From: Onchidella celtica
Lineage: Eukaryota; Mollusca; Gastropoda; Systellommatophora; Onchidiidae
Length of the DNA: 64,000 nt
Reading direction: 5' to 3'
NCBI GenBank assembly: GCA_963931925.1
Contig: OZ007582.1
Location: forward strand, 26,098,224 to 26,162,223
Each line of letters begins with the position of its first letter. Within the stretch, counting starts at the first letter, position 1. The position numbers and the translations under genes were made by a program. This document shows positions 2-37,300 of this stretch, in pieces. Under the pieces are notes generated by a model, which saw only the letters and a list, made by a program, of their open reading frames with translations, had not been told where the DNA came from and made no database searches.

Positions 2-3000
2 ATCTTAACTGCCATCGTAACAGTTACCTCCCAGGAACTGTCCTGTCCAGACGTTTGTGCCTGCTCTGGCCCAATCGCTGACTGTTATGGGAGAGAACTG
101 ACACAAATTCCAGAGGGATTACCTCCCAGTGTGCAGCACCTTGATCTTCAGGATAACCTGATTGCAGAAGTCAACAACAGCCTGCTAACACAGCTTCCTA
201 ACTTGCAAACATTGCTGCTCCGACGGAATCAGTTCACAGAACTCAAGGCTGATAGTTTTGCAAATTTGTCAAAACTGCAGAGACTTCATGTTTCCAGTAA
301 TCAGATTGCAAATATTGATGACAATGCATTCTTCAACCTCCCAGTCCTTCAGGTCCTTGATCTCACAGAAAACAAAATCTCCAACATATCTAGAAAATTT
401 AACACTCCCAGTCTAGAACGACTCGTGCTTGGCAAAAATGAAATCACAGAGCTTGGGAACAATACTTTTGAGGGTCTCGAAAACTTGATCTACCTGGTGT
501 TGTCAGAGAATAAAATATCATACATTTCAGAGCTGGCCTTCAATGGATTGAACAAACTGGCATTTCTCATTCTGAGTGGAAACCCACTGAAAAATCTGGA
601 CAATGTTTTCAATGGTGTAGAGTCACTCAGCTTTCTTGATGTCTCCTCATGTCAGCTGAAAAAAATTCCGGAAGGACTCCCATGGGCACTGCGATATCTG
701 CAGTTTCATAACAATAATTTGACAATAATCCGCTCACGAGATCTAGTCAATGTTCGTTTTCTGGATAGAGCAAGTTTTCAAAACAATCAGATCTACACAA
801 TTGAAGATGGAGCACTTTCTCATGCACCTCACCTCTCTAAACTGGACTTTGATTACAACAACCTGAAACAGCTGCCCTATGGTATCCCTGCTACAGTTAA
901 GAAATTCACAGCTGACGGAAACCAAATTATTCGAGTCTATCAGTTTAATTTTGATGTTGACTCACAAATGCAAAGTCTGTCTTTGAGAAATAACAGCATT
1001 AGTGATTTGGCAGCCAATACTTTCTCCAGACTAGGTAACTTGACCTCTCTCAATCTGGGACATAACGAAATCAAAGTGTTGAGAAATATGACATTTTCTG
1101 GTCTAGGCAAAGTTAGAGGTCTCAGTCTAGAGGAAAATCCTCTGAAAAAGTTTGAGCTTCGCGCATTCGTTGGTCTGTTTAGGTTAAACCAACTGAAACT
1201 TTCTGACATCACCAGTGAAAAAATTCAGTTAGACGGACCAATATTTCAAGAGGTTCCCTATTTGTCCAGCTTGAACCTGCAAAGTAGTCCATCCATGACC
1301 AACGTCACTTTAAGCAGTGACACACTGTTACGTTCTCTGCGCAGTCTCAAGCAATTAAATTTGAGGAATTGTAGTTTACAAACATTACCTAAAGATCTGA
1401 GAGCTTCTCTACCCAACTTAAAGTCTTTGAAGTTACAAGAAAATCCATGGCACTGTGATGCAAATCTCCTCGGACTTCAGAACTGGATGAAGGAATCTCC
1501 ACGTTTATTTTTCAGAGCAAACCAAATCACTTGTTCTTCTCCAGAAAACTTAGAAGGGAGGGCCCTTGTTGATATTGATGCTCATGAATTCACCATGCCG
1601 ACCACAACAACAACGACAACAACAACAACAACAACATCAGAGACTACCTCCATACCAAAGACTACAACATCATCTTCAACAGGTGCAGAGACAAGTGTAA
1701 CATCTGCAGTCCCGACTCCAACCTCCATACCACCCACAAAACAAACAGAACCCTCGGACACCACAACCAAATCAGCAATGGTGACAAGGGTAAGTAATGG
1801 CACTCCTTAACTCACCAGCATTCATAAAATAAGTAATGGCACTCCTTAACTCACCAGCATTCATAAGTAATGGCACTCCTTAACTCACCAGCATTCATAA
1901 AATAAGTAATGGCACACCTTAACTCACCAGCATTCATAAGTAATGGCACTCCTTAACTCACCAGCATTCATAAAATAAGTAATGGCACTCCTTAACTCAC
2001 CAGCATTCATAAGTAATGGCACACTTTAACTCACCAGCGTTCATAAAATAAGTAACGGCACACTTTAACTCACCAGCGTTCATAAAATAAGTAATGGCAC
2101 ACTTTAACTCACCAGCGTTCATAAAATAAGTAATGGCACTCTTTAACTCACTAGCGTTCATAAAATAAGTAATGGCACTCCTTAACTCACCAGCGTTCAT
2201 AAAATAAGTAATGGCATTCTTTAACTCACCAGCATTCCTAAATCGAAATGTTTCTTCAATGAAAAATCCAACCGAAAACCAAGTCGTCTATGTTTCCTTT
2301 CTTGAATGAACCAAAACAGACAAAAAGAATCTGTAAATGGCCTTAAGTCATCAACATGCAGGATGTACGCTTTAAACTTTTTATTTCTGGTGTTTTTTTT
2401 CTTCTCTTTGCTTTGGACAGATTATCGTCAATCGATTTCACCTCCTTGCATTATCGCCCCCAACACCACCTACCATGTGTTCATGTTGCCTAAACTTCTT
2501 CACCTAAACCATCTACTCATCAGCGGCAACATTCCACCGCCACAACATTCTGAACCATAACCCCACTTTCCATGTAATTTCCTTTCAGCGACCCTTCACT
2601 TCCACGACTACAGCGGATACTTCAAAGAGGCAGATCTCCACGACAATATCAACAACCAGCGACACTTCTACAACACAGCCAGAAACATCCTCAAGTGTTA
2701 CAACTATCACACAATATGAGACATCAACTACCACTTCTTCTGAGACTACTTCAATGCAGCCGCATACAACAGTTTCACTCCATCCTCAGACGACATTATC
2801 AACACACTATCAAACAGTACTAAAGACAGAACCTACTAATAAAACAACATCTATCACACAAACTTCCACAACAGACTTAACATCGACAACGGAGACCATT
2901 TTCTCCACATCAGACACGTCAACAGAGACCATGACAAGCTCAACAAGGTAAGCCGGAGAAACATGAAATGTAAATAATTATGGTAATTCAAACCAAACAA

Positions 3001-4452
3001 AAAAATCACACAAATGAAGATATTCTTGTGTCCCTAAATTGTCCCTTGCTGTTCTACTTAAGGAGAACCAAATATTGTAGTTTTCCTCCTGCCATTGACC
3101 AGTTTAATCATGAGTTTGAGTTTCAACATCTATCAGAGCTGCATTTAAGCAAACAAAAAAATATGATTTGGACCAGAAAAATATCTGATCTTGTTCTCAA
3201 AATCATAAAATTTTGTTCATGTTGGGTCAGACATTACAAAACAGAGAAAAGCCTGATTTTGAGCAAAGTCACTCCAGATTTGCTTTTACGTTTTTGTACT
3301 CAGATCATTTTAAGTGCCGCCTTATCTGTACATCATACATGAATTTGTAAAATTCTGGAGATCCTTTAAATAATGTTTGATGATCTAGGAATTTTCTGTT
3401 AATTTCTGTAACATATGACTTTTTTAAGACAGCACATTTCAGTTTTAGGATGCTGATCTATTATAATTGTCCTTAACTCAGGTTTCAAAATCATGAAAAC
3501 TGAGAATACCAAAGGTTCAGAAAAAAAAAGATTTAAAAAATTTGTTATTGTGTGAGCAAATAAATCTGGAATTTCACCTGAAGATTGATCAGAGGCATTG
3601 AGACACAACCAGTACAAGTACTTCTTGTTCATTTTCCCTTTGTCTCCTCTTAAAATTATGTGATAGTTACCAGTTTCAAGATCACTGTGAGTATTTCAAT
3701 GACCAGAGTAAGTTATTTTCTGTTTTTCATTTCTGTTGAATATGCATGAGTTTCATCAGAAATTGAATAAATGATTTTCTCTGATTGACAGCATCAGTGC
3801 AAACAGCTCTACTGCAGAGACAAAGGACATGAGCACTACAACATTGACTACTGAAGCCACAGCCACATCCTCTACAGGTAGACAGACAGTGCCAGAGGAA
3901 AGCACCAATGCTTTTCCCAACTCTACAGACAAGGATCAACACAACTATCCCTTAAAACCACCAAACACAGGTGATAGTCGTCTGCCCACTTTCTCTGGCT
4001 CCGCTGGCTCCAGGCTCAGAATTATCATCATTGCAGTCTCTGTATCACTCATTGCACTTGTGATTGGACTTTTTGTTGTTCTCGCTGTTGTCAAATATCG
4101 GAAACACAGAAAACGGGTATCTTTAGAGGAAAATGCTCACCAATACACAGAGCCACACATTGAAAGTTCTGACACAGTTTTCATCATTGACCAAATGCAT
4201 CATGGAACTGATACCCTCCCACCCAGCCCGCCAGCACAAGGTGAGGATGTGTCACCATCACATGATGCTTCATCACCAACCTCTCCTTCATCAAACAACA
4301 AATCCAGACGTAAATCTTCATCAACCAGGAAAAATTCAAAGGCTAACCGGAAGACATCCACTGCATCATCCGCAAGTTCCAAAGCTAGTTTTGACTGCAT
4401 GAGCGGCTCCCCTGAAGATGATTCTGAAATGCTCATGACCTCTTGGAAATAA
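2..4452 (+). CDS. Leucine-rich repeat single-pass membrane protein, 5' end cut by window edge
   Basis: Three exons join in phase: 2-1789, 2589-2947 and 3792-4452 (stop TAA 4450-4452). Donors are GTAAGT at 1790 and GTAAGC at 2948; acceptors end at 2588 and 3791. The frame is already open at base 2, where the end of a hydrophobic signal peptide is read, so the true start lies outside the window. Domains in order: a cysteine-bearing LRR N-cap (CPDVCACSG), about 19 extracellular leucine-rich repeats, an LRR C-cap (WHCDANLLGLQNW), a Thr/Ser-rich mucin-like stalk of roughly 250 residues that includes a run of about 12 Thr, one transmembrane helix (LRIIIIAVSVSLIALVIGLF) with a basic stop-transfer stretch, and a Ser/Lys-rich cytoplasmic tail without a TIR domain. 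It is therefore not a canonical Toll receptor. Ligand and function are unknown; adhesion or pattern recognition would fit. The gene lies antisense to the expected 3' part of TIMELESS. Confidence 0.88.
1791..2243. repeat. Minisatellite, 12 units of 39 or 34 bp, starting inside a splice donor
   Basis: Tandem units begin TAAGTAATGGCACTCCTTAA. By my count the lengths alternate 39, 34, 39, 34, 39, 34 and then become six units of 39, so the left half is really a 73-bp higher-order repeat. The first unit begins one base inside the 5' splice site of intron 1: exon ...AAGG, then GTAAGT. Later units carry AATAAG instead of GGTAAG, so they lose the GT and do not duplicate the splice site. Confidence 0.93.
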
Positions 4453-10300: not shown

Positions 10301-13300
10301 GGGACTAGACGTACTATTGTGCCACTACTAGGCTATGCTACGGCTAACCAAGTGACTTGACTACGTTTCGGGCGTTTGGTTTTTTTCTTCTTTTTTCTCT
10401 CTCCTTCTTCTCCTACTTGGATCACACTCGCAGCTGGAAAACTGGTTCCACGAATCCACGTCACAGTTCAAGGTTCACGTGAAATAACAAGAAAGAATAG
10501 TGAGAAATAAATTCGAGACTTAGGACTTTGTTTATGGGATTCGTGATTTTGACTTACGCGTGCTTGACTGTCTGCATAACATTTTATATTTAATGTTCAT
10601 TTTTACTAGATAAGTTTGGGGCCATAAAAATTTACCAAGTCATATTCTCACAACTGTCATAATCATAGTCAGTCATGAACATCTAGTCAAATTCTGTGGG
10701 CTTAAAAAAAAAAAAAAACAAATAGAAGAAAACCATTATCGAAGTTTCTATCTGATTAATGAAAGAAAAACCATGATAAATTACTACACCTCCAGAATAG
10801 AGTAAAAAAAACAACAAAACAAACATCAAAGTTTTACTTTAACTGACATACAGTATGAAAATCACAAGAATCTTTGTTTCCCAGTGGGAACTTTACACAA
10901 TTAAAATAATACATGTGATATATTGTAAAGCCCAAAAATGTGCTTCAGCTGAGAAGAAAGTTTTGAATGAGATGTCCTTCCCTTATTTTCCATTGGTTCA
11001 ATACACCATGTCATGATAACTGCTCCAACATAATGATCAAAGTCAAAACTGCATGGCACCTTTGACCCCCAGGTGAAACCCAACACTGTCACATGAGCAA
11101 AAAAACTTCATCCTTGCAGTAATGCATTTAACAACTGATAGCGTAAGATTTAAGTATTTCACAATGATACAGTTTTATCTGCTTTTCTTAGAAATCCAAA
11201 CAACAAAATGAGATGGGCCATTAGGTTAGCAAATGATGATATTGTATTCACAGCAAAGGGTTAATCCCTTTGTGACAAACTTTTTCGTCAAGTTTTGCCA
11301 AGCCTGTTTTGGTCAAGTTGAGATAGAGTGTATTGGCAGATTCTATGGTGGCGTTACAGTTTTGTAAATGTCTTTCACAATTGTAGAAGAAATATCCAAA
11401 TGTTGTGTATATTATTATGAAGAAAATGGACAAGCTGTCTACTGAGTTGAAAAACAAATGCTTTACAGGACTGTTTAAATCGCTTGGAAAGCGGTATTCT
11501 AGTTGCCGATCGGAATCCCCCGCCGACATCCCGCGATGTGGTCATAAATCACCTGTCAGCCGTGTGCACATCCGTGACGGCATGCCATCCCTGGTCAAGC
11601 CTGTGTAATACGATTCCACCAATTTTCGCATACCTTTGCAGCGCGATATCTTCCGATCTAATAATGCTACAGCACCATGCGAGATCTCATTTTAAACGTC
11701 AGGATTGTACCAACGGGACGATATAACTTTAGCTGCTTACTTTTCAAGATTGTTGATTTTATCGGCTGATATTTCCAGTGTGTGTTTTTTAGATTTTGGA
11801 ATTTGATTTTCAACACTAGTTCTCTTTAATCGTCAATATTTTGCACGGGCCTCCTTTGATTTCCATATAAAATCAATATTTCGAAAATGTAAAGGCTAAC
11901 CTCTAACCTGTGCAAGTTTGGTATATGTATAGGTTCTGTGTGATTTGTTTACGATTTTTGAAAAAGTTGTGCGACTCAATCGAGGTGCTTCTGTGCCATT
12001 TTTTGTTTGTTTGCCGCCTGTTATTAGCAGCTTGTGTGAAAAATATTGCAAAATGGAGCACCATGAAGAACATATCCACGTTGAGCGCCTCCACGAACGG
12101 TGTCGAACATGTGGTGGGAGGACACTTACCAAACAGCAAAAACGGCAAAAGCGGAAAGCAAAGAAGTGCAAGGACTTTGAGAATGACATTTTGCTTGCTT
12201 TTGGTGTATCCATCACCGGCGACTTGAATCATATTCACTCCTCAACTATTTGTTATTCGTGTGTGGCCATGATAGGAAACATCAAACGCCATGCCTTCAA
12301 AGGAAGTATTGTTAACGCAAGGAAGTTGGCCCAAGGAAGTTCACATTTATGGACCGAATTTCAGCCACACACGAGGGCCGCAGATTGTGTATTATGTGCA
12401 CAGTATTTAGAGACTAGTTTGGAGAGTAGACATGTTTCAAATGACTCCACACCACATCAAGACAGAGACCAAACAATAATTTCCACAGCAGCAGCATGTT
12501 CAACCACGACATTAGAGGATATAATCCCTTCGCCGATGACACAAAATTCAACATTTGAGGAGACAGCACCAACACAAACGATTGCATGTACAATACAAGA
12601 CGCAATCCATCATGACATAACGGAAGCCACATCAGCTACATTACATGACACATCCAACCTATCAACGACCTGTAGTACAACATGCGAGGACACAACGCTA
12701 ACAGAAAACACACCGTCATCTAGCAGTGGCCTTAATGAGGCAGAGTTGAGCGGCCCCCCTGTTGCTACATCAACGCCACACAAACCTACAAAGGTTATGG
12801 TAGACAGCAACACCTCACCGGCATTTAAACACGACAAGTTATTTTCCCAGTCATTCGAATTGTCCCCAACACGGCCACTTACACAAGAAGAACGTAAACT
12901 TCACACACATTTTGTTAGGAGACAATTGAATAATTCAGAAACAAACATTTTCAAATGCAAGACAGGAGGCCAACCTATACTATTAGCCAAACTAACAAAA
13001 ACAAATAAAGAAACATCTCTAGCCAAAGAAACAACCAAAAGAAAATGCACACATTTGCTTTCTACCATTAGGACTAGCATAGCGGGCGCATCACAAGACA
13101 GTATTACCACACAACATGCATCAGAACGTAGACAGGTCAAAACAGCGACACGAAAGAATATTTGTGAGGAGGCAGGCATTAAATTAAAACCACAAATGAG
13201 CAGCCAGTCTGTGATGGCAATGAAGGAAGCTACAGATCTAACATGGAGCCAATTACGTCAACAAAGACGGTATCTTAAAGAAGCTGGCCTCATGTTGCCA

Positions 13301-16300
13301 AATGAGCAAGAACAACGGAAAGCCATGGAAGATCTGGCAGCTGACATTGTCACAGAGATGGAGGATTTTATTGACGCCGATGGACAGACACACCGCGCAG
13401 CATTCGGGAGGGTTTCAAATCTATCAGATTTTGTAGTCAACATCTTAGACAAACACAAACAAAATGAGACACTCACGTGGCACGACTCCACCATTCCACA
13501 GGATGAAATTTGGGTTAAGTTTGGGGGAGACCACGGCAAAGGTAGTTTAAAATTTACTCTTCAAATAGCTAACACACAAAAAGCAAATTCAAAACACAAC
13601 ACATTTCTAGTTGCAATGGCAAAAATCAAAGACAGCTATGAAAACCTTGAAACATGTACGTCTGTTTTACAACCTAAACTTGCAGAGCTTTCAGCACTAG
13701 TATGGCAGGGCAAGAAAATAGTTTTATTCCTTTTTGGGGATTATGACTTTCTTGCTAAAATATATGGACTCTCTGGTGCACAAGGCACATACCCATGTCT
13801 GTGGTGCCTGGCGCCAAAGTCCCACATGATGAAGTTACAAACACATGACTCTCCAGCCCGCTCTTTGGCCACCATCAAACACGACTACAAACGTTTCAAA
13901 GAGGTCGGCTTAGGGCTGAAGAAACATGTGCGCCATTTTCACAATAGTCTCCACCTCCCAATGCTAGATGTAGATCCAAGCCATGCTGCTCCACCATATC
14001 TTCATATTTTGTTAGGTATTGTGCTGAAACACCATCGCCTGCTTGAAGAGGCTGCACATGAAATCGATGTGCAGTTGGGCTTACAAGCAGAAGATGAATG
14101 CAAAGGTGTGTCTGCGTCAGTAAAATCCTATGGAAGCAACTGGCCAAAGGCTGAGGGACTCGAAGAAAGAATTCGGTTCCTGCAAGGTTGTGTGACTCTG
14201 ACTAATGATGAAGAAGAGAGAAGCCGTTTTCAGGAGAAGCTCTCAGATGCAGAAGAAGAGTTACTCAACCTTGATTTCGAGCCCCTCAGCCCTAGGTCAG
14301 GGCCCATCTGCTCACAACTAGACAACATTCTTGACAAACACAACATTACACCTCAGTCATACCATAGCCGTTCATTCATCGGAAACCACTGCCACAAATA
14401 CATCACTGCCAAAGTTTATAAAGACATTACTTTGTTCATTATCAAGAAAACACAGGAAAACACACACAACCAGAGCATACTGACCACGGCTTTCGTGTTG
14501 CGGGACAAATTTAATGAAATAAATGAAGCATACGCCAAAGTTCACACATTAATATCACATGGAAAACCTGTGCCACCTGACAACATTCCACACATTCATA
14601 CTTGCATTACTAGGTACATGGAATTATTCAGATGTTCTTTCCCCAATAAAATCATACCTAAGCAACATATTCTAGAGAAGCACTGCCTTCCCTGGATACA
14701 GAAATACGGGTTTGGTATGGCACTGCATGGTGAGCAAGGGGGCGAGCTCATTCACGCTTCTGTGGCCAAGTTAGAAAGACGGGCAGCAGCCATCAAAAAC
14801 AAGCAACACCAACTTCAACTAGTCATGCAGTCACAACATCTACAAACCTCCCCAGAACTCCAAGCATGTGCTCCACCAGTGAAACGAAGGAAGACAAAAT
14901 CTTAATCTGTGACATTATTTATAATTTTATAGACCCATTCATTGTTTTTGATTATTTGTGAATTTGTGATAACATTGACTGGTTAAGTGCAGGCATGACA
15001 TGACACTGACAGCGAGGCCAACGGAAAACAATCGTCAAACTCGAATAACTCGACACTGGATATCTATACATGAATGCAGTCATGTGAGTTTTGAAAGTTA
15101 ATCCTATTTCTCATGTTGTGTGATATTTCACCTCCTTCGATGGGGCCAATCATATCTGATTTCATATCTGAAATTTATGAACAATGTACTAATTTGAGGA
15201 AATATTGTATAATTTTGTGCCTCTATATCTCTACTACGATGTTGAATACATTTCTATGGTTCACTGTATACATTTACAATATATCGCTAAGTTATTATGT
15301 GTTTACAAAAGTATGACATATGGGCTGATTTGGGTGTGAGACTGCTTTGATTACCGATAAAAAACAGAGTCAGAAGCACTACACGGGCTCCGGGAAAACC
15401 CCCCTAGATTCGAGGTCGCTGACCCAGTTAACGAGGTCGCGACCGGGTCAGGTCACCAATAGCGGGGAGGCTGCTCGACTGGGCAACTAGAATACCACCT
15501 CTTAACAGCCGTGTTTAGGTTGTTGAAAATTCCACATTGTGTGTGAGTGACAATAGAGATTGAGAAAGGAAATGCACACAAGTGGTAAAATATCATTTCG
15601 TAAACTTCCAAGCTGAAGAGATTATATTTATTCATATATTTTTTGGTACTGTACATTTTGAATTCTTTAAGTTTACTCTTATAAAGTCACAGTAATGTAA
15701 TTACAATATGATACACAGTGTATGTTGCAATGACCTGGGTTATAGCAAAAACGGTGCCACACCGTGGCACTGAATTTATGATGAGACGTGTACATCTGCC
15801 ATCACAAAGCGGTTAAGGCTGACCCGCAGGAAGGAAATGCAAGATGAAATGTTCAGATGAAAATCAGATATTCTTACCTTGAACAACATTGGATTTCTTT
15901 TTCTTTCTCTTCCCTTTCTTATTTTTCTGCACCACCACATGTTTGTTGGACTTGGTGAAAACTTCCAACATCTTCAAGAAAATATGTGCTGATTCAACCA
16001 AATCCTGTAGATATGCTCTGGAAGTAGCAGATCAGAATACATTAGAAAATTTACCCATCTCCATATTTAAAGGACTGTAAGTTCTGGCGCGATACATTAA
16101 AGCCATTCTGCTACACAATGGCACAATAGAAAAATAAAAATTGAAACTTTTAGGAGAGTGATGTTGTGGAAACCTTCAGAGGAAAATAATGCTTGTCAAA
16201 CAAAGAGTTTCAGCCCTTTTCCTTCATGTTCTTCTCCAATCCTGTCCGGCTGGCTGCATTCAAACCTCTAAATCTTTCCTGATTTATCAGATTAAAAAAA

Positions 16301-22300: not shown

Positions 22301-25300
22301 ACATGCACATACTAAGACCCAGTGGAAAAAAAACTCATATCACATCCATATTACACCCCTCACCCCCTTTAATGCTAAAATTGATAAAAATGCCACTCTC
22401 CTGTTTAACTCACTTGAGACTGTTCACGCAAGAGTTGCGTGACGGTTTGGCAATCGCTATGGACGGTTCACACACCCCCTGCGTGATAAAGGAAAGTGTT
22501 TCTACCGGCTGTACCAGTCATGCAAGGTTTGCGTGAACTGTCTCTTACGCTTGCTAGGGCATTTATTTTGTTTCGTTTCAAGTTTGGCGGAAGTAGGGTG
22601 GTAACTTTTGTGGGTGTGGCCTGTCAAGGGCAGTCACTCCAATCATTGAAAATAGTACTTGTGCACCTAAAAGGATCGTCAAACAGAAAGAGAGTGAAGA
22701 CAAATGAACAGATGGATACAGGACTTGAAAATATAACATAAGACAGATATTTTTGGGTACAATGTCATTTTATTTTAGTATAGGTACAGGTCCCAAAATT
22801 TTTCCCAAAACTCAAAAGTATGTCATTTTTTAAAAATCATAAACATAGAACTGTAAGAGATAGAGTATTCTCCTTTAGCATGTGTATTGTACACACTCTC
22901 ATACTGATTGTATCCAAAGGACATCACAATTAATCCATTTGTTTCCTTTTTATGAATTTTCAAAGTACCCCCAAAAATGCCGGTCTTGAGCGTAAGTACA
23001 CCGGAAAATACTTGTCTCAAGTCAGTTAAGACCTCAGTAGGTGTATGTAAAACATTTTCCAGTTAGGCCTAGTTAAAGAAAACCTAGAGACAAGTTCACA
23101 CTGATTCTCTTAAGGAATCTGGTCAGCCCAACCTGGCATTTCAATGTGATAATCAGAAAGCTCGATTTATTTCCCAGTGCTACTACTGCATAATTATAAG
23201 TGTGTGGCCACATGTCTAGCGATGGGCCAAGCGGTGAGCTACACTGTAGTGAAGCGACGGGAATAAATGCATTAAACCTAACCTAGGTGTCCACACCACA
23301 AGCGATTACCGCTAGCTAGGGGCTCGCTATGAGCGACGATAAATAACTTGCCATTTAACATCGCTCATCGCTCAAGCTGTGTGTCTTGACCCCATGCCCT
23401 CCTAAAAATTGTGAGGTTTTTGCGCACTTTCACTTTCTGTCTAGTGTCTTTTTTCAAGCACATCGTCAATGAAATGCTTTTTTAACCAGCGAGCCTTTAA
23501 TTCTACAAAATATCACATTATGCATCAGAAGGTGTAAAGGTGTGTGTGGGCATATTTTGAAAGGTCTTAATGCTCACTTTATTTTGTAATAATTGTGTTG
23601 ATTTCGATTCCCAACTGAACTGATCGCAAGAAAGTGTTGCGATATTTTGAGCAGATAAAAAAAAAATGATACAATAAGTATACATGTAATAGGACTGTAT
23701 CTATAAAAAATTTTTCAAGCAGCCATAATGAAAGGTGGAAAATACCGTTTTTCTCTTCAATATTAATTGAGATATTAATGATTTTCAACGTAGCTTCAAT
23801 GTAATTTTTGTACATGCGCTTGCGACCAGTGTTTGTATTTCTTTATTAATAATATTAGACTCCCTTCACATTGCAGTGGGAGAAATTAAAACAACAACAA
23901 AACAAAACATCATCTTTGGGTAATATTCATAGAAGAGATTTAGATATAATTTTCTTGCCAAGCCACGGCACCAGGACCAACAAAATATTTCACCAGCTGC
24001 TCTCTCATCCATGTTGCATGTTGTCCTGGTCGATCTTGGTAGCGCCTCACCCGCCTATCACCATCTTGGACTGGAGCATCATACCACTTTTCGTGTTCTG
24101 TTTCCATTCTGTTCAAACTTTTAATGTCAACAATTGCGGATGATTATGAACATCCGCTGGCAGAACAGTGTCACCAACCAGGAGGTGCTAGACAGAGCTG
24201 GCTCAACAAGCATTGAGTCGATGCTGCTGAAGGCTCAGATGCTCTGGACAGGCCATGTAGTATGAATGGATGACAGCCACATCCCCAGACAAGTCATGTA
24301 TGGAGAGCTGAAAGAGGGTTCGTGCAAACAAGGACGCCCAAAACTGAGGTACAAAGACACCTTGAAAAACAACCTCAAGTGGAGCGGCATTCAGCCACGC
24401 CAGCTGGAAGCGTGTGCCTCCAATAGATCAGGATGGAGGTCTCTCACCTCCAAGGCAACCACTGTCTTTGAGGAGGATCGGCGACAGCGTCTCGCTGCGG
24501 CAAGGGACAGACGTCACTTGGCAGCGTCCACCTCGGTCCAAAATAAAAACTTTCAATGCGACACCTGCTTCCAGCTTCGGTCTGCGGAGCCACATTCGCC
24601 GCCATTGCTGAGAGCAGAAAAACAACGTCATCATCGGATCCCGATGACTACCAAGCAATGCGACGGTAGCAAGGACAATCTTAACAGTTGATATGGCCGT
24701 CTTCAACACTCGCCATGTTGCTGCTAGAACCCCAAAGACATACTCGACACAACGCCTTGCTCGCGAATGACGATAAGTAAATATTTTCAGATCACGTGTT
24801 AACTTTGAATTGATGGTGGTTATTAGATAAGGTTTTAGAGGATAAGCTGTGTCTCCAATGAGAAAATAGGGAAGCCGGATGTTTGAATTCCGTAGACCAG
24901 AGCCTGTTGGGAGTTCAGCAACGTTTGCGTCAAGCTGAGTTTGTAGCTCAGATCTTGAAAATATTCCATCAACAGCCACCACACAGAGTGCGGTTTTCGT
25001 CGACGAAGAGTGCTATCGCACTTATGAACGAACGTAAATGCTTTTGTTCTTATTTTTTTTCTTTTAATAAACTGTTATTTTTTATCTATTATATCTTGTT
25101 GTTGTTCAGTCAATTTATTTACTGTGTGGAGAATGAAATGAAGCAAAATGAATATACCGTAGTTAGTTTGTAAGTTATCTTAATAGTTGCATTAAAAATA
25201 AGTAGATTTGATTCAAGCCCAACAAGGTCCATAGACTAGCTGAATGAATCTCAGCGAGCTACAAGCGAGCTACTGAGCTAGCTATAATCGCTTGAACCGT

Positions 25301-28300
25301 CCACACCATGAGCTATTGCCCAGCTAAGGGCTAGCCTGTAGCTTGGAAATCCATAGCTAGTGGTGTGGCCACCCAAGCTCCATCGCTCACAACACGACCG
25401 TCGCCTGATCACAGCGAGCTGGCAGCGCGGCTCGACATGTGGCCACACTGTAATGCTCATGAGGAAGCTGCATTAATCCTGTTTGTCTATCAGTCGTGTC
25501 CACAAGTGCAGTCTACACTCGGATATTTCAAAAAACCCAATTTTGTATGTTTTGTTTCAAAATCACACTAGCACCTCCATTAGCCCTCTGACCCAGGCGA
25601 GAAGACCATCTCCATCCCACCTCTACTCTGCCACTCGCACTGGGTGCCACACTTCAGGTAACATCTTGTACACGGCGTACAAAAACCGGATACTTTAGTT
25701 GGCTGCCGGTAATAGGCTGGAGGCGCCTGCGGTCGTTGGGCCGTGACGGTGATCGCGGTTACTCATCGGTCAGTGAGCGCCGTAGAATGGATGTTGCAAA
25801 ACGCATTTTTTTGTACTTTATCGGGGAGATATTACGCTAACAATGTTTGGTTCAGCGATTAATTGTTAGTGGGTAGCAGTAGGCAAATGCTGTTAGTGTA
25901 AGATATCGAAAGAAAAATACTTAAATATTGATTGGTTTAGTTGTAGTAGGTAGTTAAAGTTGACCCTATTTCAATGCTGACACTGTTGTTAGATATGACA
26001 TAATAAAGATCCATAATTCGGTAACCGCTGGTCGGTTCCCGTTCAAATTTACAACACATGAAGTAGACACATGTACAAGCTTTCTTACCAAGTGGCTTTT
26101 TTGCCGCAGCTTTTATAATGCGTACAGGTCAATTTAAACAGCTACGTGTTGTCACATGGTATATTATGTCGCCCTTAGCTTGCACTTGCCGTCTCCTCGT
26201 AAGAAAGTTTGCGCATAAATTTTCTTTTTCTTGGAACAGCTTATTTATGTACACTAAATACAGTTTCGAAGTGCCTCACAATTTGGTTCATTGTTGTGTG
26301 GAGGGGTCGGTCTCTGAATTTTCATTTGGCCGCACTTTAGGCCAGGGTTTGACTGTGCAGCTCAGTGATGGAGCTACTTGCAACAGATGGATTTTCATGA
26401 TAAATTCTAGTTTACGAAAGTCATCATTGATGCTACATACTCTTTTTTTTTTTAGTTTGGCGATAGCCTGGTGGCTACTCGCACTGCCTTGTTCACCCAG
26501 CAACCAAACCCGAATGTTATTGCCTTATATGGTATGGTATGTAGATCTAGTGGTGTTCTACAATGTACTGTTCTGGGAGTGTTTTGTTGGGCAACATCTT
26601 CCTGTATGTCACATTGTAATTGTCTATCACTATCAGAGTTTGAAATCCAGAGAGTGATTCTGTGTGGACGGGTTTAGTGTATGAGATGGCTCTGTGAACT
26701 TGACTGAAAGAGCTGTTGAGATAGTCGAATGTCATTTGCAGTGTACATGCCTCCTCGATGATGAATGGGGTTGCGTGTATGCGTTTTTGCCTGAGTGACA
26801 CTCTTTTCAGTGAGGCTGAGATTCTTATGGCAGTGGTTATCAATAAATGACCTGCTGCTATAATAAGCATATGGTGAGATTCTGTGTTTTGAGAATTCCA
26901 TCGAAACAGGAAGCAAGAGCGCCAGAGTTAAGGGTGAGCCCAGAAAATGTGCTAAGAGATAATGTGTCTTCTGTCTGCTTCAATTCTTGTGTGTATTTTT
27001 GTTTTGTCGGCGTCCGTGCCGCTGAAAATTATGCTTGCTAGTTACAGTTATATAGGGTATGTCCTGGCTGGTTTTTCAGTGTGAGGTATGTTTTGGTCAG
27101 TTATGTTTGTTTTAGAGAGACTTGTGCTTGGAGAGTCTACAGTGGTGTTTTTGGTTTTTTTTCGGCTGCTGAGGTGAGACGACTGGGGTGCAAACTGCTT
27201 CAGTAGGACACAGCCGTGAGACATTCGCTGGCTCTGCTGTTTCGTTACAGATGGGGTTGTATTCGCTCCTAAAGTTTAAACTGTTTTCAATAGTAGGTCG
27301 GAGAATCAAGTGAAACTGTTGTTAATCAGACATGTAGATGAACGAGAGTGTAGAACAGATTTCAACATGTCCTGTTTATTCCGGTTGTCTGCACAAGGGA
27401 CTGTACTCTCAATTACAGACGAGTACCTAAACATTGTGGTGAGTGTCGCAAATTTATAAAATTATAAATAACATATTAACATCCTCTTTTCTCAGGATAA
27501 ATAATTCTGTGAATTATGTGTAATGTGTAAGATGTAATGAGTGTTGAAATGAAGAGTCGTTCACATCGTACTTTGATGAGATTAGTAAAAAAAAAAAAAA
27601 AACAATAATGTAATTTAAATTAACACTAACACAGAACAAAAGTAAATTTGTCATTGCAGGTGGAAACTGTTATAGTTTTAGCGAACAAAGTCTTTCATCC
27701 AATTTGATCTGAAGCGCTCCCTGGTTGACCTTCTAGGTTCCATTGCCATTGGGTTATTTTCCGATGGTGTCTGTGTCACTGAGGGAGTATCATTTGATGT
27801 TTGGTCTGGGTTCGGTTCTGTGTACACCTCTGTTGGTACTTGGGGTGAGAATGGCGTTCTCTTGTGTCTGGTGTGTACTCTGTTTCTCACAAAGTGTCCT
27901 CCATTTTCTCCAGTGATCTGGTATGATTTGGAACTGTCTTTTGGAGCTGCCGTTATTATACCACTTTCCCACTTTTTCCTTTCAGGGTTTTGGTAGTACA
28001 CTGGGGAGTTTGTGCAAATGGGTGGTAGCTCGTGAGCTCTTTTATTGAAACATTTCTTGATTGACATTTTATGCTTCTGTAGTTCTTCGACTACGTCTGG
28101 GTTTATTCTGTTCTTTTCTTTGTTCTCTGCTATTGAAGGTATCATTGTCCTAATGTTTCTTCCCATTAGGATTCTTGCAGGGCTCATTGTGAAACCTTGA
28201 CGTGGTGTGTTGGGAAGTTCCAGCAATGCCTCATACTGATCTGCTCCTTCTTCTACAGCCTTCCACATCATTTTCTTTATGATTTTTACTGATGCCTCTG

Positions 28301-31300
28301 CCTTCCCATTAGCTTGATGATGTCCAGGGTCGGATTTGATGTGTTGAAAACCCCATCTTTGTGCGAAATTACTGAACTCACAGGAGGAATATTGCGGTCC
28401 AGAATCCGTAACAACACATTTTGGTATTCCATATCTGGCAAAGGTGCAAAGGTCCTGGTCTCCCGAGAAGAGCCAGTTGGCGGTGGGCCAACTACCCACC
28501 CTGTAAAAATAAACCAGTTACAGAAACACAAGCAAATACTTCAAATCAGTCTTTTATCTTGGGAGAAGGGGGAGCATCTGCACCTGTAGATTCAATGAAG
28601 GACAATGGACAAAGCCGAAAGGACGCCACTGGCCCGACTGCTCCTTCATCAAGCAAGTCACTCCGGATTGCGTCGTGGAATGTCCGCTCCATGTATGAAG
28701 CAGGAAAGAGTGCCCAGGTTACAATGGAGATGAGGCGATACAGACTGCACATACTTGGAGTTAGCGAGACCCGCTGGATACAGTCCGGACTGAAACAACT
28801 TAATACTGGGGAAAAGATTTTGTATTCTGGAAGGGAGGACAAAAAGCATACAGAAGGAGTAGCGATCATCTTGAGCAAGCACGCCCAGAGGTCACTGAGG
28901 GGATGGGAACCCTATGGAAGGAGAATTATATTGGCATCATTTACTACTAAGAACAAGAACATCAACATGAACATTGTGCAGATATACGCCCCAACAAATG
29001 AAGCAACCGATGAGGACAAGGACGACTTCTACAACCAGCTTCAGGAAATAGTTGACACATTGCCAAGAAAAGATGTGAACATTATAATGGGAGACGCCAA
29101 TGCCAAGATAGGACAGGACAATACAGGGTATGAGGACATTATGGGGTGCAATGGTTTAGGACAAATGAATGAGAATGGAGAGCGGTTTGCAAGTTTCTGC
29201 GCATTTAACAGCTATGTGATTGGAGGTTCAGTATTCCCACACAAGAGGATCCATAAGGCCACTTGGATTTCACCGGATGGAGTAACTGAAAATCAGATTG
29301 ACCACTTTTGCATCACCCGACGATTCAGACGCTCACTAGAGGATGTCATAGTACAGAGAGGAGCAGATGTTGGATCTGACCATCACATGCTGCTGGCAAG
29401 ACTCAAACTCCGCCTCAAGAAACAAGGTACCAGAGCAGGAACAAAGAGGAGAAAGTTTCAAGTGAGCCTTCTGGCTGGAGACAAGAAGGAAGAGTTCCAG
29501 CTGACACTGAGGAATAGATTCAAACCCCTTGTTGACCTCGAAGAGACAGTAGATTTGGAGACTCACTGGGCTAAGGTAAAAGGAGTATTTACATCGACAT
29601 GTCAGGATGTTATTGGGGAAAAGAAAGTGGAACACAAGGAATGGATCAGTCAAAAATCACTGGACTTGATAAGGATAAGAAGAGACCTAAAAGAACGGGT
29701 AAATGCAAGTCGTACAAGAAGCTCAAGAGTTGGTAACCAGGAAGAGTACCGAGCATCAGCTAAAGAGGTCAAAAAATCAATTAAAAAAGACAAAGAGGAG
29801 TTCATAGGAATGTTAGCAGAGAAAGCAGAGAAGGCAGCAACAGGAGGACACATGAGGATCCTCTACCAGACTACAAAGACTCTTGCTGGAAAATATGGAA
29901 AACCTGAAGTTCCTGTCAAGGATTACAACAGGAAGGCTATTTTTGGAAAGGAAGCTCAGGCAAAAAGATGGATAGAACATTTTAACAGCCTCTTGAACAG
30001 ACCTCCACCAAGCAACCCACCCGACATTCTACCCGCAAGAAATGATTTACCAATCAGTTGCGACCCTCCGACTAAAGCAGAGATTAATGATGCCATAAAG
30101 CAGTTAAATCGAGGCAAGGCAGCTGGACCAGACCAGATCCCACCAGAGGCGCTGAAGGCAGATGCTGCTGGGGCTGCAGAGGGTCTGCACTCACTATTCT
30201 CGAGGATTTGGATCGGAGGCAAGTTTCCAAAGGACTGGAAGGAAGGACACCTCGTGAAGCTCCCAAAAAAAGGGGACCTCAGCAATTGTAGTAACTACAG
30301 AGGAATCACACTTCTCTCCATCCCAGGAAAGGTTTTCAATCGGATTATTCTCAAGCGAATACAGAATGCAACAGACCAAAAACTTCGCGAGGAGCAAGCT
30401 GGTTTCAGGAGTAATCGATCAACCACCGACCAGATCGCCACGCTGAGAATCATAGTAGAGCAGTCGCTAGAGTGGAACTCCCAACTGATAGTGAGCTTCC
30501 TTGACTACGAGAAGGCCTTTGATAGCATCGATAGAGAAACACTGTGGAGAATATTGAGACATTATGGAATCCCAGAGAAGATGGTGAATCTTATCAAGAG
30601 CATGTACGAGGGGACAAGTTGCAGAGTCGTACATGATGGTGAGCTTACTGACAGCTTTGATATCAAGACTGGTGTTAGGCAGGGTTGTTTGCTGTCCCCA
30701 TTTCTGTTTATCCTGGTGATTGATTGGCTTATGAAAGAAACCACCAGTGGAGGAAGAAATGGCATACAATGGACCCCATGGACACAGCTGGACGATCTAG
30801 ATTTTGCAGATGACTTGGCACTATTGTCGCACACACACGACCAGATGCAAGCAAAGACTACAGCTCTAAACAAAATTTCAGAATCTATTGGATTGAGGAT
30901 ACATCCCGCGAAGTCGAAGGTCCTAAAAATTGTTGCACCCCTAAGCGAACAAGTCACAGTAGGAGATCAACCACTGGAAGATGTAGAGTCCTTCTGCTAT
31001 CTTGGTAGTATCATTGACAATAAGGGAGGAACAGAGGCAGAAGTCAAAGCACGAATTGGAAAGGCACAGGCAGCTTTCACATCCTTAAGCAAGATTTGGA
31101 GAACCAAGGATATATCTCTAAAAACAAAGCTGAGGATATTCAACTCGAACGTGAAGTCAGTCCTGTTGTATGGATGTGAGACTTGGAATGCGTCCCAGGC
31201 CTGCATAAAGAGAATCCAAGTTTTCATCAACAGATGTTTGAGGAAGCTACTTAAGATCAGATGGACAGACAAGGTCAGCAATGAAATTGTATGGAAAAGA

Positions 31301-34300
31301 ACAAGACAGAACCCAGTCAGAGAGGAAATTGGTAGGAGGCGATGGAGATGGATCGGCCACACTCTCAGGAGGCCAGGAAACAGCATCACGAAGAAGGTAT
31401 TGGACTGGAATCCCCAGGGCAAGAGATCAAGAGGAAGGCCGCGCGGAACGTGGAGAAGAGCCAGAGAAAATGATGTGCAACGAAGCGGAAAGACTTGGAA
31501 TAATGTAAAGAGGCTGGCCCATGATAGAGAGGGATGGAAGGTGTTTGTTGGTGGCCTATACCCTGATCCAGGGTGAGAAAGGCAATGATGATGATGATGA
31601 TGATATCTGGCAAAATGGCCTTTCAGTTTTGTGACTATCATGGAAGTTGTTGTGGTGGGCAGGTAGTCTACCTCAATGAAATTGGAGAAATAGTCTGTGA
31701 CTACTTGGTATACTCGCCCTTTGATTTCAAACAATCTGTGGCAATTTTGGTCCATGGTTCACTTCCTTCTCCATGCTGTTGTAGGTTTTCCTTGCAGTTC
31801 GAAAGTTTAATTGCTTGGCAGCTTTCACAGTTTTCAGCCATTTGCTTGATTTCAGAGTTCATGTTAGGCCAATAAATTGCATCTCTGGCCCGTCTTACCA
31901 TGCTATCATATGCCAGGTGAGCTGCTTGAAGTCTGGTTTTCATTTCATGTTTCAAAGTAAAAGGGACAATTATATATTTGCCTTTGAGAATTAGATCATT
32001 TTCTACTGACAGACAGTCCTTTATTTGGAAATATGGGAGTATTTCGGAAGGAACTTCACTTTTTGACTCAGGCCATCCTTCAATGATGGCTGTTTTCAGT
32101 CTTTGCAATGTTCTATCTCGCTTGCTCTCTTCGGCAAATCTATCTAGCATGAGGTCAGAAATGGGCACTGTTATAAAAGAGATTGTGGCTATTTCATCAT
32201 TTACATCCGCTTCATCAGTGTCATTTTTGAGGTAGTGTCGTGAGAGGAAATCTGCGAGGATGAGCTTTTCTCCTTGAAGCCATTGAAATTTGAAATGATA
32301 TTTGTTGCTCCTCATAAGCAACCGTTGAAGTCGTGGCGGAGCTTGATTCAGTGGTTTGCCAATGATGGATAGCAATGGTTTGTGGTCATTTATTATTGTT
32401 ACTTCTCTTCCATAAGTATATTGGTTGAAACGTTCTAGTCCAAATACCACAGCCAACATTTCTGTTTCAATTTGTGCCCACCTTTGTTCTGAGGTGGTGA
32501 GCGCTCTTGAGGCGAATTCGATTGGCTGTCCATTTTGCATTAATACACAGCCAAGACCGGATTTGCTACTGTCCACTTGAACTTGCAGTTCTTGTTTAGG
32601 GTCAAAGTATTTCAGCACAGGTGTATCAACTATCAGTTCTTTGACTTCATTGAACGCATCTTGACACTCTCCGCTCCAATGAAAGTCAGTATTTTTCTTC
32701 AACAAATTTCTTATTGGTGCCAGTTTCTCGGATAGGTTGGGCAGGAATCTTGCTAGGTATTGAATCATGCCGCAGAATCTGCGTACTTCCTGAGCATCTT
32801 TTGGGGGTGCCATATGTGTAATTGAAGATACTTTCTGGGGGTCTGGTTTGATTCCATCTACACCAATGCGGTGTCCCATGAAAGTGATTTCCCCTTGCTT
32901 GATGTGGGATTTGCCTTTGTTAAGCACAATGTTTTTCTCAGAGCACCGCTCTCTCAACCTGTGTAAATTTTCATCATGATCGACATTGGCCACTTCTTGT
33001 GTTGACCCTCTGCCAACAATGACTATGTCATCAGCAACATTTATGCAGCCAGGCAAGCCTTCCAGTGCTTGCATCAGTTTCTTTTGAAATATTTCTGTGG
33101 AAACATTTAATCCAAAAGGAAGCCGTGCCCACCTGAAACGTCCAAACGGGGTGATCACTGTAGTGAGCATGCTGGACTCATAATCTAGACACACATGCCA
33201 GAATGCATCTTTTACATCTAGCTTTGAGAAAACTTTTGCATTTTCAAAAAGAGGCAGAGTGTCCTCTAAAGTTGGTAGTTTGTAATGTTCTCTTTTGAGC
33301 GCCTTATTTAAAGGTTGTGGGTCAATGCAAATTCTGAGTTTCTTGTCTGCTTTTTCAACCACTACCATCTGATTGACCCAAGCACTGGGTTCCTCCACTG
33401 GAATGAGAATGTTTCTTTCCACTAATTGATTTAGCTCTTCTTTGACTTTGTCCTTTAAAGCAAAAGGCACGTTTCTGCATGGCAGGGCGACAGGTTTGGC
33501 ATCTTGGTGTACATGTAGTTTGGCATAGCCCAGGTTTCCCAACTTTGGTTTGTCTTTGGTTTGCATTTTTCTACTGGTTTGTTGAGGTGGGTGTGATTCA
33601 GTAACATTGATAAATCTATCTTTGTGCACAGAAAGTATCTTGAATTCTTCACAAGCTTTTGTACCCAACAAACACATAAGATTGTTTTCTACCACAGTGA
33701 ACTCTGGTTTCTTCTTTTGTCTTGTTCTGATGTTTTCAACTTCTAGTTCTGCTTTGCCCACTGGCAACAATTTTGTGTTGTTCCACATGACCAGAGTATG
33801 GTCTGTCTTCTCAGTTTGTTCTTTTTTGACAAATTTCTTGCAGATTATGTTCACATCTGCTCCGGTGTCGACAAGGAAACGAATGTTGTGGTTGTTAATC
33901 TTGAATTGAGCTGTTATCCTGTTGTTCTTTGATTTGTCGTTGTCTACTGCAAAAAGCCATGCTGTACTCGTAGACCCTTCTTCTTGTGTCTCCATTGTTT
34001 CTGTACTTGCACAGATTTCTGAAAGGCACAGATTTATTTTCATACATTTTGCTCGAAAATGATTTCTTCCTTTGCAGGCTGAGCACGTTTTTCCCCACGC
34101 TGGGCATAGTTCCTTTTGTCTAGGGTGGCTTTTGCCACAATATCTGCAGTTTGCCAACATGATTGGTTTTTGCTTTGATGATGACTGTCTCGGTGGCTGG
34201 CTAATAGCCTCAATCTTCCTTTCTTGAGAGGTTGTGTTCATTTCCTGGACATGTAATGTTGATTACTCCACTGCTCGACAAATTTGGATTGTCTTGTTGA

Positions 34301-37300
34301 GGTCTAACTCGACTTCTCTTAAGTGGCGTTCCTGCAACTTTTTCTCAACAGTAAAAACTATTTTGTCTCTCAACATCCTGTCTTTGTCTTTGAAATTGCA
34401 TGAGTTTGCTCGAGCTCTCAATTCTGTTACAAATGAATCAAATGGAACACTGATGGGAGTGTTCCAGAAACGATATGACTGTAGTACTTCATTTGTTTTG
34501 GGGTTACAGTATTCTTCTAACTTTTGGAGGATTTTCCCAAAATTTTGCCTGTCTTCTTCTTTCTCAAAAGGAAGTTGGTCGACGACTTCAACAGCCGTAG
34601 GACCAGCAATATGAAGGATAGTTGCAGCTTTCCTTATGTCGTCCTTTTCAGAAACACCTGAAGCTGTCATGTAAATGTCTAAATGGCGTTTCCATTTACG
34701 AAAATTCTCGGCAACATTGCCTTCATTGATTTCTAAGGACGGAGGCAGATGAAAATTTGCCTCAGCCATGATGGTTGTTTCAATCCAAATTTAGTGAATG
34801 ATGACGAACTGATAGCAGTGGCACTAACAGGGCCCACTGTGTGAGTATGTTTCAGTTTTGTTGCTACGTTTTCAAACTTGTAGTGGTGGATTGTTCATTG
34901 CGAGTTGTGTCAATTGCATTCTGTTGCGATTAGTTTGAGGTGATACAATTTTGTTGTTGCACATTTACTGGCTCTTCATGAATGACAACACATGCTATGT
35001 TGCAATTAGTTTGAGGTTTTAACTTGGACTAGGTCACGCCAGGGGAGGTAAGAGTGGTTCGCTTGAGGGTTCTTGAATGTATTCTTGAGTTGTCTCCCTA
35101 TGATTGCTTTTTTTTTTTTTTTTTAGAGCGTGTGGCGTCCAGGAAAGTTCATTTCAGTTCCACATTCACTCAATTTCATTCCGCGATGAGTTCGAACTTG
35201 GGAGGTTGGGTTCAATCATTCATTCAGTGAATGTACTTAGCTGACTGCCACCATGTTAATCAGACATGTAGATGAACGAGAGTGTAGCGTCCCACTAGTT
35301 GAACGATCGATATTTTTCTTCCCCCTGCATGACGCGTCTCACTCGGCGACCTTCCTCCCCCCCCCTCTCGCCAGCAAGGCCGGTATTTCCCTTTGATGTC
35401 GCTGTGTGGCTTGTTTGTCTCACTGTAGAAAATCCAGAAGCGTCTGGAAGATACTGCAGTGTCCGAGATTACGCTAGGTCGACCTTGAGTGATGTAATGC
35501 TGTGACGTGTCTGTGTACGATTGGGTGGCCTGTATGTGTCCCGAACGATCTAGGTCTGTCTCGTGCTTATGGGGCGGTAAAGCCGCTTCCTGAACGTTCC
35601 TGGACAGAATATATATAAGGAGGGCCAGGCGAGTAGGATAGTGTGTGCAAACCATGGATGCAGGTCGTAGGTGTAAATCTAGTCGTGGTCAGATATATTA
35701 TAGTGCCTTCCCTGATAGGTGTAAGTAACTTGTGGATATCAGCTCGTGTTTACAGTTATTAAACGTTAGTATTAATTGTTCATCGGATCCTGTTATTTAT
35801 TTCTACAACAGTTCGAGACAGTTTCGTTTTTTTAAGGGGTAGACGATCAGTTCATCTGACTCTCCCCATCATAACGTGCTGAAATTTGCATCAACTGTTA
35901 CAGAGAGTGTAGAACAGATTTCAACGTGTCCTGTTTATTCCGGTTGTCTGCACAAGGGACTGTACTCTCAATTACAGACGAGTACCTAAACATTGTGGTG
36001 AGTGTCGCAAATTTATAAAATTATAAATAACATATTAACAACTGTGCTTTGTTGACATTTAGCGTCCTGAACTATTTTGTAACATTCTGGACAGATATAT
36101 TTTGAATGTTTCTCGATATACCCTTCCCTGATATCTAGACGGCAGACAAAAAAAAACCAAAAGACGTCGCAAGCAATTGATGAACACACACACAAAAAAT
36201 GGTTTTTGGTCTGTTTTTTGTTGTTTTTTTATCAACCAAACATACGTCACAAATGTCCAGAGCAGAAATATGCTTATTTCGTGCATGATTCACGTTATTA
36301 TTATGTTCAAGCAGTTTATTACATCACAAGAAAGTCAGTAGTTTGGCCAACTTAACAACAATAGGTGAGCACGTCACATATAAATTGATATAGCGTTCCA
36401 ACTAAAGCTGCGGTATTATTGAAATTAGCGCAGACAGATCAGAAATTATTTCTGATCACACAGATGAAAACTGCTAACTGTTTTCGCCGGCCAGTTTTGT
36501 GTAATTAAGAATAGTTTATCAGCGATTGGGCACGGGAAAAGTACAAAATATAGGTAATACACACATGCGTAGAAGAAAGACAAAAGCACGTAGAAAGCTG
36601 GAATTTGCGCAGACTGTAAGGGAAAGATTGTTGCTAGTCTTCATAGCAAGACATCGGGATGGGTCCACGGGGACTGTCGCAAATTTGATATCAAAAGAGC
36701 CGAATTTTAACATGAAAGCGTCTCCCGTTAATTGCTGCCCGCGGAGCGAATCTGACCGCATTGACCCCGGTGAGCATTCCCGCGCACGAGATTTATGACC
36801 GCCAGCCGGCGACAACTAAGAGGCGCGATTTCGAGCATTTTTGTACGCCGTGTGTAAAATCTCCGGTGGACATCAAAGTAAGTAGCCTGAAATTTCCCTA
36901 GACATGCCGGTGCCGACTAGACTCTACACTGTTCTCAGGTGAAAGCAACTGAATGGGCATTGCAGGCGGCACAGGTCCCCTCCATGTTAATTCCCACCCA
37001 ACCCTCCCCATCCCAACTCGAGTGAGGACTGTCCAAGCTCTTGTCTCTGATACATACATGTACATTGTATTAGCCAAGTGCAATGTACAATAATTTTCAT
37101 GTGATCATCAAAACTTGACTGAATCCCCCATCCCATGTCATTTCTGGGGAGTTTTCAAAGGAATACAGGGAGGGCAAGATTTTGTCATAAAAACAGGGAG
37201 ACTTGGGAGGTCTGTTTCACCTGTTTAAACAAGATGTGTTCTTCTCAATCTATTATGTATGTAGAGAGAAATGCTTGCAAATAACCACTTTTTGATCTCT

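Follow-up and report, generated by a model that had tools for sequence, protein, structure and literature searches.

We find that a 64,000-nucleotide stretch of the genome of the gastropod Onchidella celtica (GenBank assembly GCA_963931925.1, contig OZ007582.1, positions 26,098,224 to 26,162,223 of the forward strand; hereafter the window) holds what is very probably a DNA transposon of the Chapaev superfamily, of the autonomous cut-and-paste type and with bipartite, uneven ends. By Chapaev superfamily we mean the CMC/CMCT group, which is distantly related to Transib and to RAG1. The evidence supports this transposon, element 1, as coding-intact and as carrying a RAG1-related transposase of the DDE (aspartate, aspartate, glutamate) type, which is laid out as a zinc domain like the N-terminus of RAG1, a linker of low complexity and an RNase H-like DDE core bearing C2/H2 zinc ligands. 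Its parts are given below in window coordinates, with 5′ and 3′ defined relative to the transposase.

11462-11465, no strand: left target site duplication TTTA, identical to 15514-15517
11466-15513, plus strand: element 1, most likely span of the Chapaev-superfamily DNA transposon, 4048 bp (CA..TG termini matching at 8 of 10 positions, 4-bp duplication)
11466-11475, plus strand: 5′ terminal block CAGGACTGTT, 8 of 10 positions matching the 3′ block, its third base G departing from CAC
11493-11507, plus strand: 5′ inner block GGTATTCTAGTTGCC, exact inverted repeat, with TAGTTG 34 bp from the terminus
12053-14905, plus strand: transposase, 950 amino acids in one frame (frame and shuffle test, Pfam, motifs)
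12053-12415, plus strand: N-terminal zinc domain (Chapa / RAG1 N-terminal-like), residues 1-121 (Pfam RAG1_imp_bd, RAG1 shuffle test)
13154-13666, plus strand: DUF1280 match, residues 368-538, with D493 inside (E 1.4e-14, 54.7 bits)
13529-14746, plus strand: putative catalytic stretch with D493, D563, C582/C585, H872/H877 and E894 or E898 (assigned by motif and spacing, not by structure)
15482-15496, minus strand: 3′ inner block GGTATTCTAGTTGCC, exact inverted repeat, with TAGTTG 24 bp from the terminus
15504-15513, minus strand: 3′ terminal block CACGGCTGTT, 8 of 10 positions in inverted match to the 5′ block
15514-15517, no strand: right target site duplication TTTA, identical to 11462-11465

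The transposase gene runs from ATG to stop without interruption and with 0 in-frame stops, as the original prediction had stated. Base-shuffled versions of the same stretch averaged 53.7 stops, and each of the 500 had at least 35; the remaining five frames across it contain 22-61. The motifs that had been named are likewise all present, namely D493, D563, the CxxC (C582-x2-C585) at 19 residues, the H-x4-H pair (H872-x4-H877) and a glutamate soon after. Both the 19 residues from D563 to the CxxC and the distance of 5 from histidine to histidine equal the spacings of RAG1. E894 and E898 both lie downstream of H872/H877, and sequence comparison favours neither as the catalytic glutamate; the active site that we propose, made up of the two aspartates, the cysteine and histidine pairs and one of these glutamates, is a prediction from motif and spacing. 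LH pairs are located between the C(2)C and H(4)H motifs, and C(2)C, LH and H(4)H are the motifs given for Chapaev (PMC4079192). As CxxC is absent between residues 117 and 581, the protein has no RING finger of the kind described in two Chapaev subgroups (PMC4411706).

Searched as a whole against Pfam, the transposase matches DUF1280 well above the cut-off of 25 bits. A classification of RNase H-like families treats DUF1280 as putative Chapaev transposases in one clade with RAG1 (PMC3985635), and Chapaev has been described as a clade of the Transib superfamily that is distant from other Transibs and has in common with RAG1 an N-terminal zinc domain named Chapa (Kapitonov and Koonin, PMC4411706). 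We judged this domain through RAG1_imp_bd and human RAG1, not through a Chapa profile. Residues 1-140 alone reach 25.8 bits against Pfam RAG1_imp_bd (cut-off 23.3), and the score of the N-terminal region against human RAG1 was reached by none of 2000 shuffles (z 8.6). In phmmer the N-terminal RAG1 match has an E value of 0.0015 with residues 1-140 as the query and 0.29 with the whole protein. The alignment pairs C17/C20, H62, C67/C70 and PHT (residues 105-107), and ends just before C112/C115, which by eye stand at the position of RAG1's next CxxC. An NCBIfam scan of the transposase returned 0 families, no relative was confirmed among 7 pattern matches in viral contigs and 61 in prokaryote genomes, and the G..G...CxxC stretch, written as a degenerate DNA pattern, had no match in either set.

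The catalytic core is less close to RAG1. Aligned with the same gap penalty as the N-terminal region, the whole core scores 58, a value reached by 6 of 2000 shuffles. The part from the two aspartates to the CxxC, which was selected and aligned with a laxer gap penalty, lies above all 2000 shuffles (z 7.1); the CxxC is in register in the RAG1 alignments, as are both histidines in the test of the part that holds the histidines and the glutamate. Several results weigh against a close relation. That last part is not above chance (127 of 2000 shuffles reached its score), the best pairwise alignment with RAG1 begins after D493, neither D493 nor D563 stands opposite a RAG1 aspartate, and under the laxer gap penalty it is D565, not D563, that faces RAG1's second aspartate. 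With the whole protein as query the RAG1_imp_bd match falls to 12.6 bits, under the cut-off. No similarity to the RAG1 nonamer-binding domain rose above shuffles (1730 of 3000 as good, in a single-sequence test that is weak). Single-sequence structure models had an unusable confidence, with a mean predicted local distance difference test score of 39.4 for residues 300-950 and 41.1 for residues 476-600. A match to the nonamer-binding domain picked by eye, GGQP against GGRP, failed the same shuffling (1730 of 3000 as good) and was rejected. Because the N-terminal match is strong but the core match marginal, with the aspartates off register, we regard the transposase as a distant relative of RAG1, related, as far as its sequence indicates, at superfamily distance. 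Of the RAG1-like core that the original prediction described, the RAG1-related DDE transposase thus stands, but the similarity across the whole core is only marginal.

The original prediction also implied that element 1 is akin to the RAG-like transposons reported from molluscs and from other protostomes, in which case it would be an element of the RAGL/ProtoRAG/TransibSU kind and a direct informant on the ancestor of V(D)J recombination. The DDE-type residues and C2/H2 ligands in RAG1 order, with equal D-to-CxxC and H-to-H spacings, would fit such an element, as would the selected D-D-CxxC part that exceeds 2000 of 2000 shuffles under a laxer gap penalty and the N-terminal zinc region common with RAG1, but the best family is DUF1280/Chapaev, the duplication is 4 bp and not 5, and phmmer with the whole protein against PDB, at an E limit of 1, retrieved no chain of the RAG1 core and only the N-terminal RAG1 at 0.29. 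Furthermore, no RAG2-like frame accompanies the gene: the frames listed from the transposase to the right end reach 67 amino acids at most, and a search for RAG2L beside the transposase found no frame of at least 70 amino acids in 14906-15513, where small multi-exon remnants would escape. The core similarity of RAG-like proteins to RAG1 is given as more than 30% across about 600 amino acids (PMC4411706), and no such high similarity was found here, the whole-core score being within reach of 6 of 2000 shuffles. We consider a RAG-like element very improbable, and the comparison does not support the implied kinship.

The assignment to Chapaev is also supported by the ends of the element. The gene is enclosed by the exact 15-bp inverted repeat GGTATTCTAGTTGCC (11493-11507 / 15482-15496), which had been taken for the element's ends; the repeat is present, but as an end it is wrong, with no duplication of more than 2 bp beside it. 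Symmetrical offsets from -6 to +6 with lengths of 2-6 and 8 bp gave nothing beyond two 2-bp matches, and no duplication of 4-8 bp at independent offsets near the repeat fits. Within the window, no copies of GGTATTCTAGTTGCC with up to 3 mismatches were found besides the pair. That the element nevertheless ends here, its target duplication having decayed or never been made, is a reading to which we give little credence: the exact 15/15 repeat encloses the gene and GC content shifts nearby, but GG..CC termini are unlike the CA..TG termini common to most of the group (PMC12730594), and in a decayed relative in the same window, element 2, TAGTTG sits inward of CAC termini, by 25 bp at one end and 34 bp at the other, and the duplication is exact. 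Assignment to another superfamily from TTAA sites flanking the repeat was dropped by eye, as the sequences beside both TTAA differ.

The termini of element 1 lie outside the repeat, 27 bp further left and 17 bp further right. A flank scan that was blind to element 2 gave the pair 11466/15513, CAGGACTGTT and CACGGCTGTT, with the duplication TTTA, and this was the sole 4-bp duplication among the three CA-starting pairs in the 10-base scan. When the 60-bp flanks were shuffled 4000 times, a CA-starting pair matching at 8 of 10 positions with a 4-bp duplication arose 4 times, and a pair at the distances seen in element 2 (within 1 bp) not once, even without the CA rule. The 3′ end, ...GTG at 15513, is of Chapaev type, for which a target duplication of generally 3-4 bp and CAC/GTG termini have been given as hallmarks (PMC4079192). 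GC content is 60% at each inner block, in the bins of 100 bp at 11501-11600 and 15401-15500. Some caution is due on this assignment of the ends: without the CA rule a pair of the same quality arose in 98 of 4000 flank shuffles, all 13 pairs of the 10-base scan include one more with a duplication (11371/15569, 5 bp, without CA..TG), the terminal blocks match at only 8 of 10 positions, and the 5′ terminus is CAG, not CAC. On the strength of the CA pair with its TTTA duplication, the shuffle rarity, the ends of the relative and the Chapaev hallmarks, we conclude that element 1 most likely spans 11466-15513 and that the 15-bp repeat is an inner signal.

Element 2 was found by tblastn of the transposase against the rest of the window, as a broken relative whose minus-strand remains fall into three pieces within 26345-26895 (E 8e-16); a fourth weak piece reaches 27004. 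The remnants correspond to pieces of residues 723-942 in three frames, and the protein pieces of the two elements are 32, 34 and 63% identical, that is about one third over most of the compared stretch. They lie inside the exact repeats CACGGCGTACAAAAA (from 25671 and to 36852), which give CAC...GTG termini with TGTA on both sides. These ends were set independently, by a rule that asks for an exact inverted repeat, 14 bp or longer, with CAC at its start and a 4-bp duplication. In the window the rule picks out two places, element 2 and a CA-rich run, against 0 in 60 shuffles; relaxed to 10 bp, it gives the same two against 3 in 60 shuffles.

25667-25670, no strand: target site duplication TGTA of element 2, identical to 36853-36856
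25671-25685, plus strand: 3′ terminal block CACGGCGTACAAAAA of element 2, exact repeat, with TAGTTG 25 bp in (25696-25701)
25671-36852, minus strand: element 2, decayed relative split by a long terminal repeat (LTR) retrotransposon (tblastn, exact ends, duplication)
26345-27004, minus strand: transposase remnants of element 2 in three frames (tblastn)
27344-36040, minus strand: gypsy-like LTR retrotransposon that lies inside element 2 and is distinct from the Chapaev element itself (LTRs of 138 bp that differ at 1 position; domains for reverse transcriptase, RNase H and integrase)
36838-36852, minus strand: 5′ terminal block CACGGCGTACAAAAA of element 2, exact repeat, with TAGTTG 34 bp in (36813-36818)

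The gypsy-like retrotransposon takes up most of the length of element 2. No target duplication was found at the LTR ends of 27344-36040, where the sole 4-bp match falls inside an LTR, and the history of the retrotransposon within element 2 is therefore not simple. A frame resembling a long interspersed nuclear element (28412-31573, plus strand), with endonuclease and reverse transcriptase domains, lies inside the LTR element in the opposite orientation.

Alignment of the four ends of the two elements leaves C1, A2, G4 and C6 of the terminal block and the inner TAGTTG invariant; the spacer sequences between the terminal and inner blocks are poorly conserved. In element 1, TAGTTG starts 34 bp from the 5′ terminus and 24 bp from the 3′ terminus; in element 2 these distances are 34 and 25 bp. 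The two ends thus differ by 9-10 bp, near one helical turn, in both elements. As their proteins are only about one third identical, the ends appear to have diverged in sequence and to have kept polarity and spacing. Vertebrate V(D)J signals have a 12/23 spacing, of which this end layout is reminiscent by analogy. The spacers of ProtoRAG are reported as 27/31, with most activity on unlike ends (PMC8289069), and some Transibs are described with 12/23-like uneven ends (PMC8355894). We tentatively suggest, as an idea more doubtful than not, that Chapaev has a 12/23-like rule of its own, with two signals per end, the 5′ inner one about one turn deeper, and unlike ends synapsed. The asymmetry was measured on two elements and four ends. 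Uneven spacing through drift, by one ancestral indel or two unrelated ones and with no role in end pairing, comes close to an even chance: there are two elements only, the 3′ distance of 25 instead of 24 in element 2 indicates that the length is not rigid, and the spacers are poorly conserved, but the 5′ distance is 34 bp in both and the polarity is the same despite the low protein identity, and in both elements the difference is near one helical turn.

By analogy with the group, from which we infer cutting, end pairing and mechanism, the transposase would recognise a bipartite end, of which the terminal CA(C/G)G(G/A)C block would be cut and the inner TAGTTG block gripped. The DDE site would cut at the CA/TG termini, and the excised element would then be joined to a 4-bp target of the form T-K-T-A, so that TTTA flanks it on either side; both target duplications, TTTA and TGTA, fit T-K-T-A. 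Since the inner block lies about one turn deeper at the 5′ end in both elements, the transpososome may prefer an unlike pair, a long end with a short one, as V(D)J recombination does. Element 1 may still be mobile, as suggested by the intact gene with its duplication, the identical inner blocks and the CpG content of the ends. The first 200 bp have a CpG observed/expected ratio of 1.28 and the last 113 bp one of 0.91, compared with 0.66 for the whole of element 1 and 0.51 for the window, and the high values at the ends fit a young insertion. The CAG 5′ terminus and the two mismatches in the terminal blocks speak against present mobility. A transposase domesticated by the host, no longer a mobile element, could account for the long intact frame and for the 5′ departure from CAC, but both ends and the exact 4-bp duplication are still there and the ends retain the CpG of a young insertion, which makes domestication most improbable.

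Element 1 resembles Chapaev in its DUF1280-type core, its C(2)C / LH / H(4)H motifs, its zinc domain like the RAG1 N-terminus, its 4-bp duplication and its 3′ GTG. Chapaev transposons are said to have been described by Kapitonov and Jurka in 2007. Named members include Chapaev1-3_ACa from Aplysia and Chapaev1-2_BF from lancelet (PMC4079192). Element 1 differs in its 5′ CAG in place of CAC and in having no RING finger, which two Chapaev subgroups possess (PMC4411706). It also differs in its uneven bipartite ends, which are absent from the Chapaev descriptions surveyed: no report of uneven Chapaev ends was found among the papers listed and the passages surveyed, and Repbase sequences stand outside the comparison. 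Chapaev3 (Merrow, Garfield, Conan) resembles it in catalytic motifs and CA..TG-type ends but has a shorter protein (Garfield 556 amino acids) and 3-bp TWA duplications, compared with the 4-bp TTTA and TGTA here (PMC4079192). ProtoRAG and TransibSU have their catalytic and zinc residues in the same order and at the same spacings and share the N-terminal zinc region (PMC7204232; PMC4411706), and ProtoRAG is also alike in its asymmetric bipartite ends (27/31; PMC8289069), whereas RAG-like transposons carry RAG2L and almost always have a 5-bp duplication, compared with one gene and 4 bp in element 1 (PMC7204232; PMC4411706). Transib belongs to the same DDE superfamily, and its members with 12/23-like uneven ends add to the likeness (PMC8355894), but it is described as being without the RAG1-type N-terminal domain (PMC8355894; PMC4411706) and has a 5-bp duplication. 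N-RAG-TP of Aplysia, too, is a mollusc transposon protein that resembles the N-terminus of RAG1, but it has been described as a RAG1 N-terminal-like sequence only (PMC8355894; PMC2996935). Its zinc domain is probably the same domain, in a Chapaev-type element. N-RAG-TP was reportedly described by Panchin and Moroz in 2008.

Ten of the long frames of the window were scanned against Pfam. A leucine-rich-repeat frame (2-1807, plus strand), upstream of element 1 and on the same strand, was the recognised host-type frame, and a further frame (3775-4449, plus strand) had only matches below the cut-off and by eye resembles a transmembrane and a cytoplasmic part. The scanned frames downstream of element 1 have transposable-element domains or no match. 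An intron location, which had been proposed for the element, is thus unsupported, a host-type frame being recognised only upstream among the ten frames scanned and no systematic exon search having been made. Elsewhere in the window, a 73-bp tandem repeat array begins at 1791, a fragment with a DDE_Tnp_4 match (24431-25012, minus strand, E 4.9e-08) is probably a Harbinger-type relic, and a 530-residue frame (52140-53729, plus strand) has a DDE_Tnp_1_7 domain (E 1.4e-81) and is presumably of piggyBac type. A 20-bp exact inverted repeat at 62696-63872 (15-mer matches 62696-62701 / 63853-63858) marks a mobile-element candidate, and the 168-residue frame within it (63074-63577) has no Pfam match.

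We know of no tested transposase from the Chapaev branch, which shares the N-terminal zinc domain of RAG1, though no search was aimed at one; the intact Chapaev gene described here may encode a working transposase of that branch. The element itself files under a known superfamily, and what seems new is its uneven ends. If Chapaev does have such a rule and pairs unlike ends, an asymmetry between spacers of about one turn would predate the RAG/Transib lineage or be convergent with it, and would not be an invention linked to RAG2. Should the asymmetry be general in Chapaev, the origin of the 12/23 rule would become a comparative question, not tied to vertebrate RAG2.

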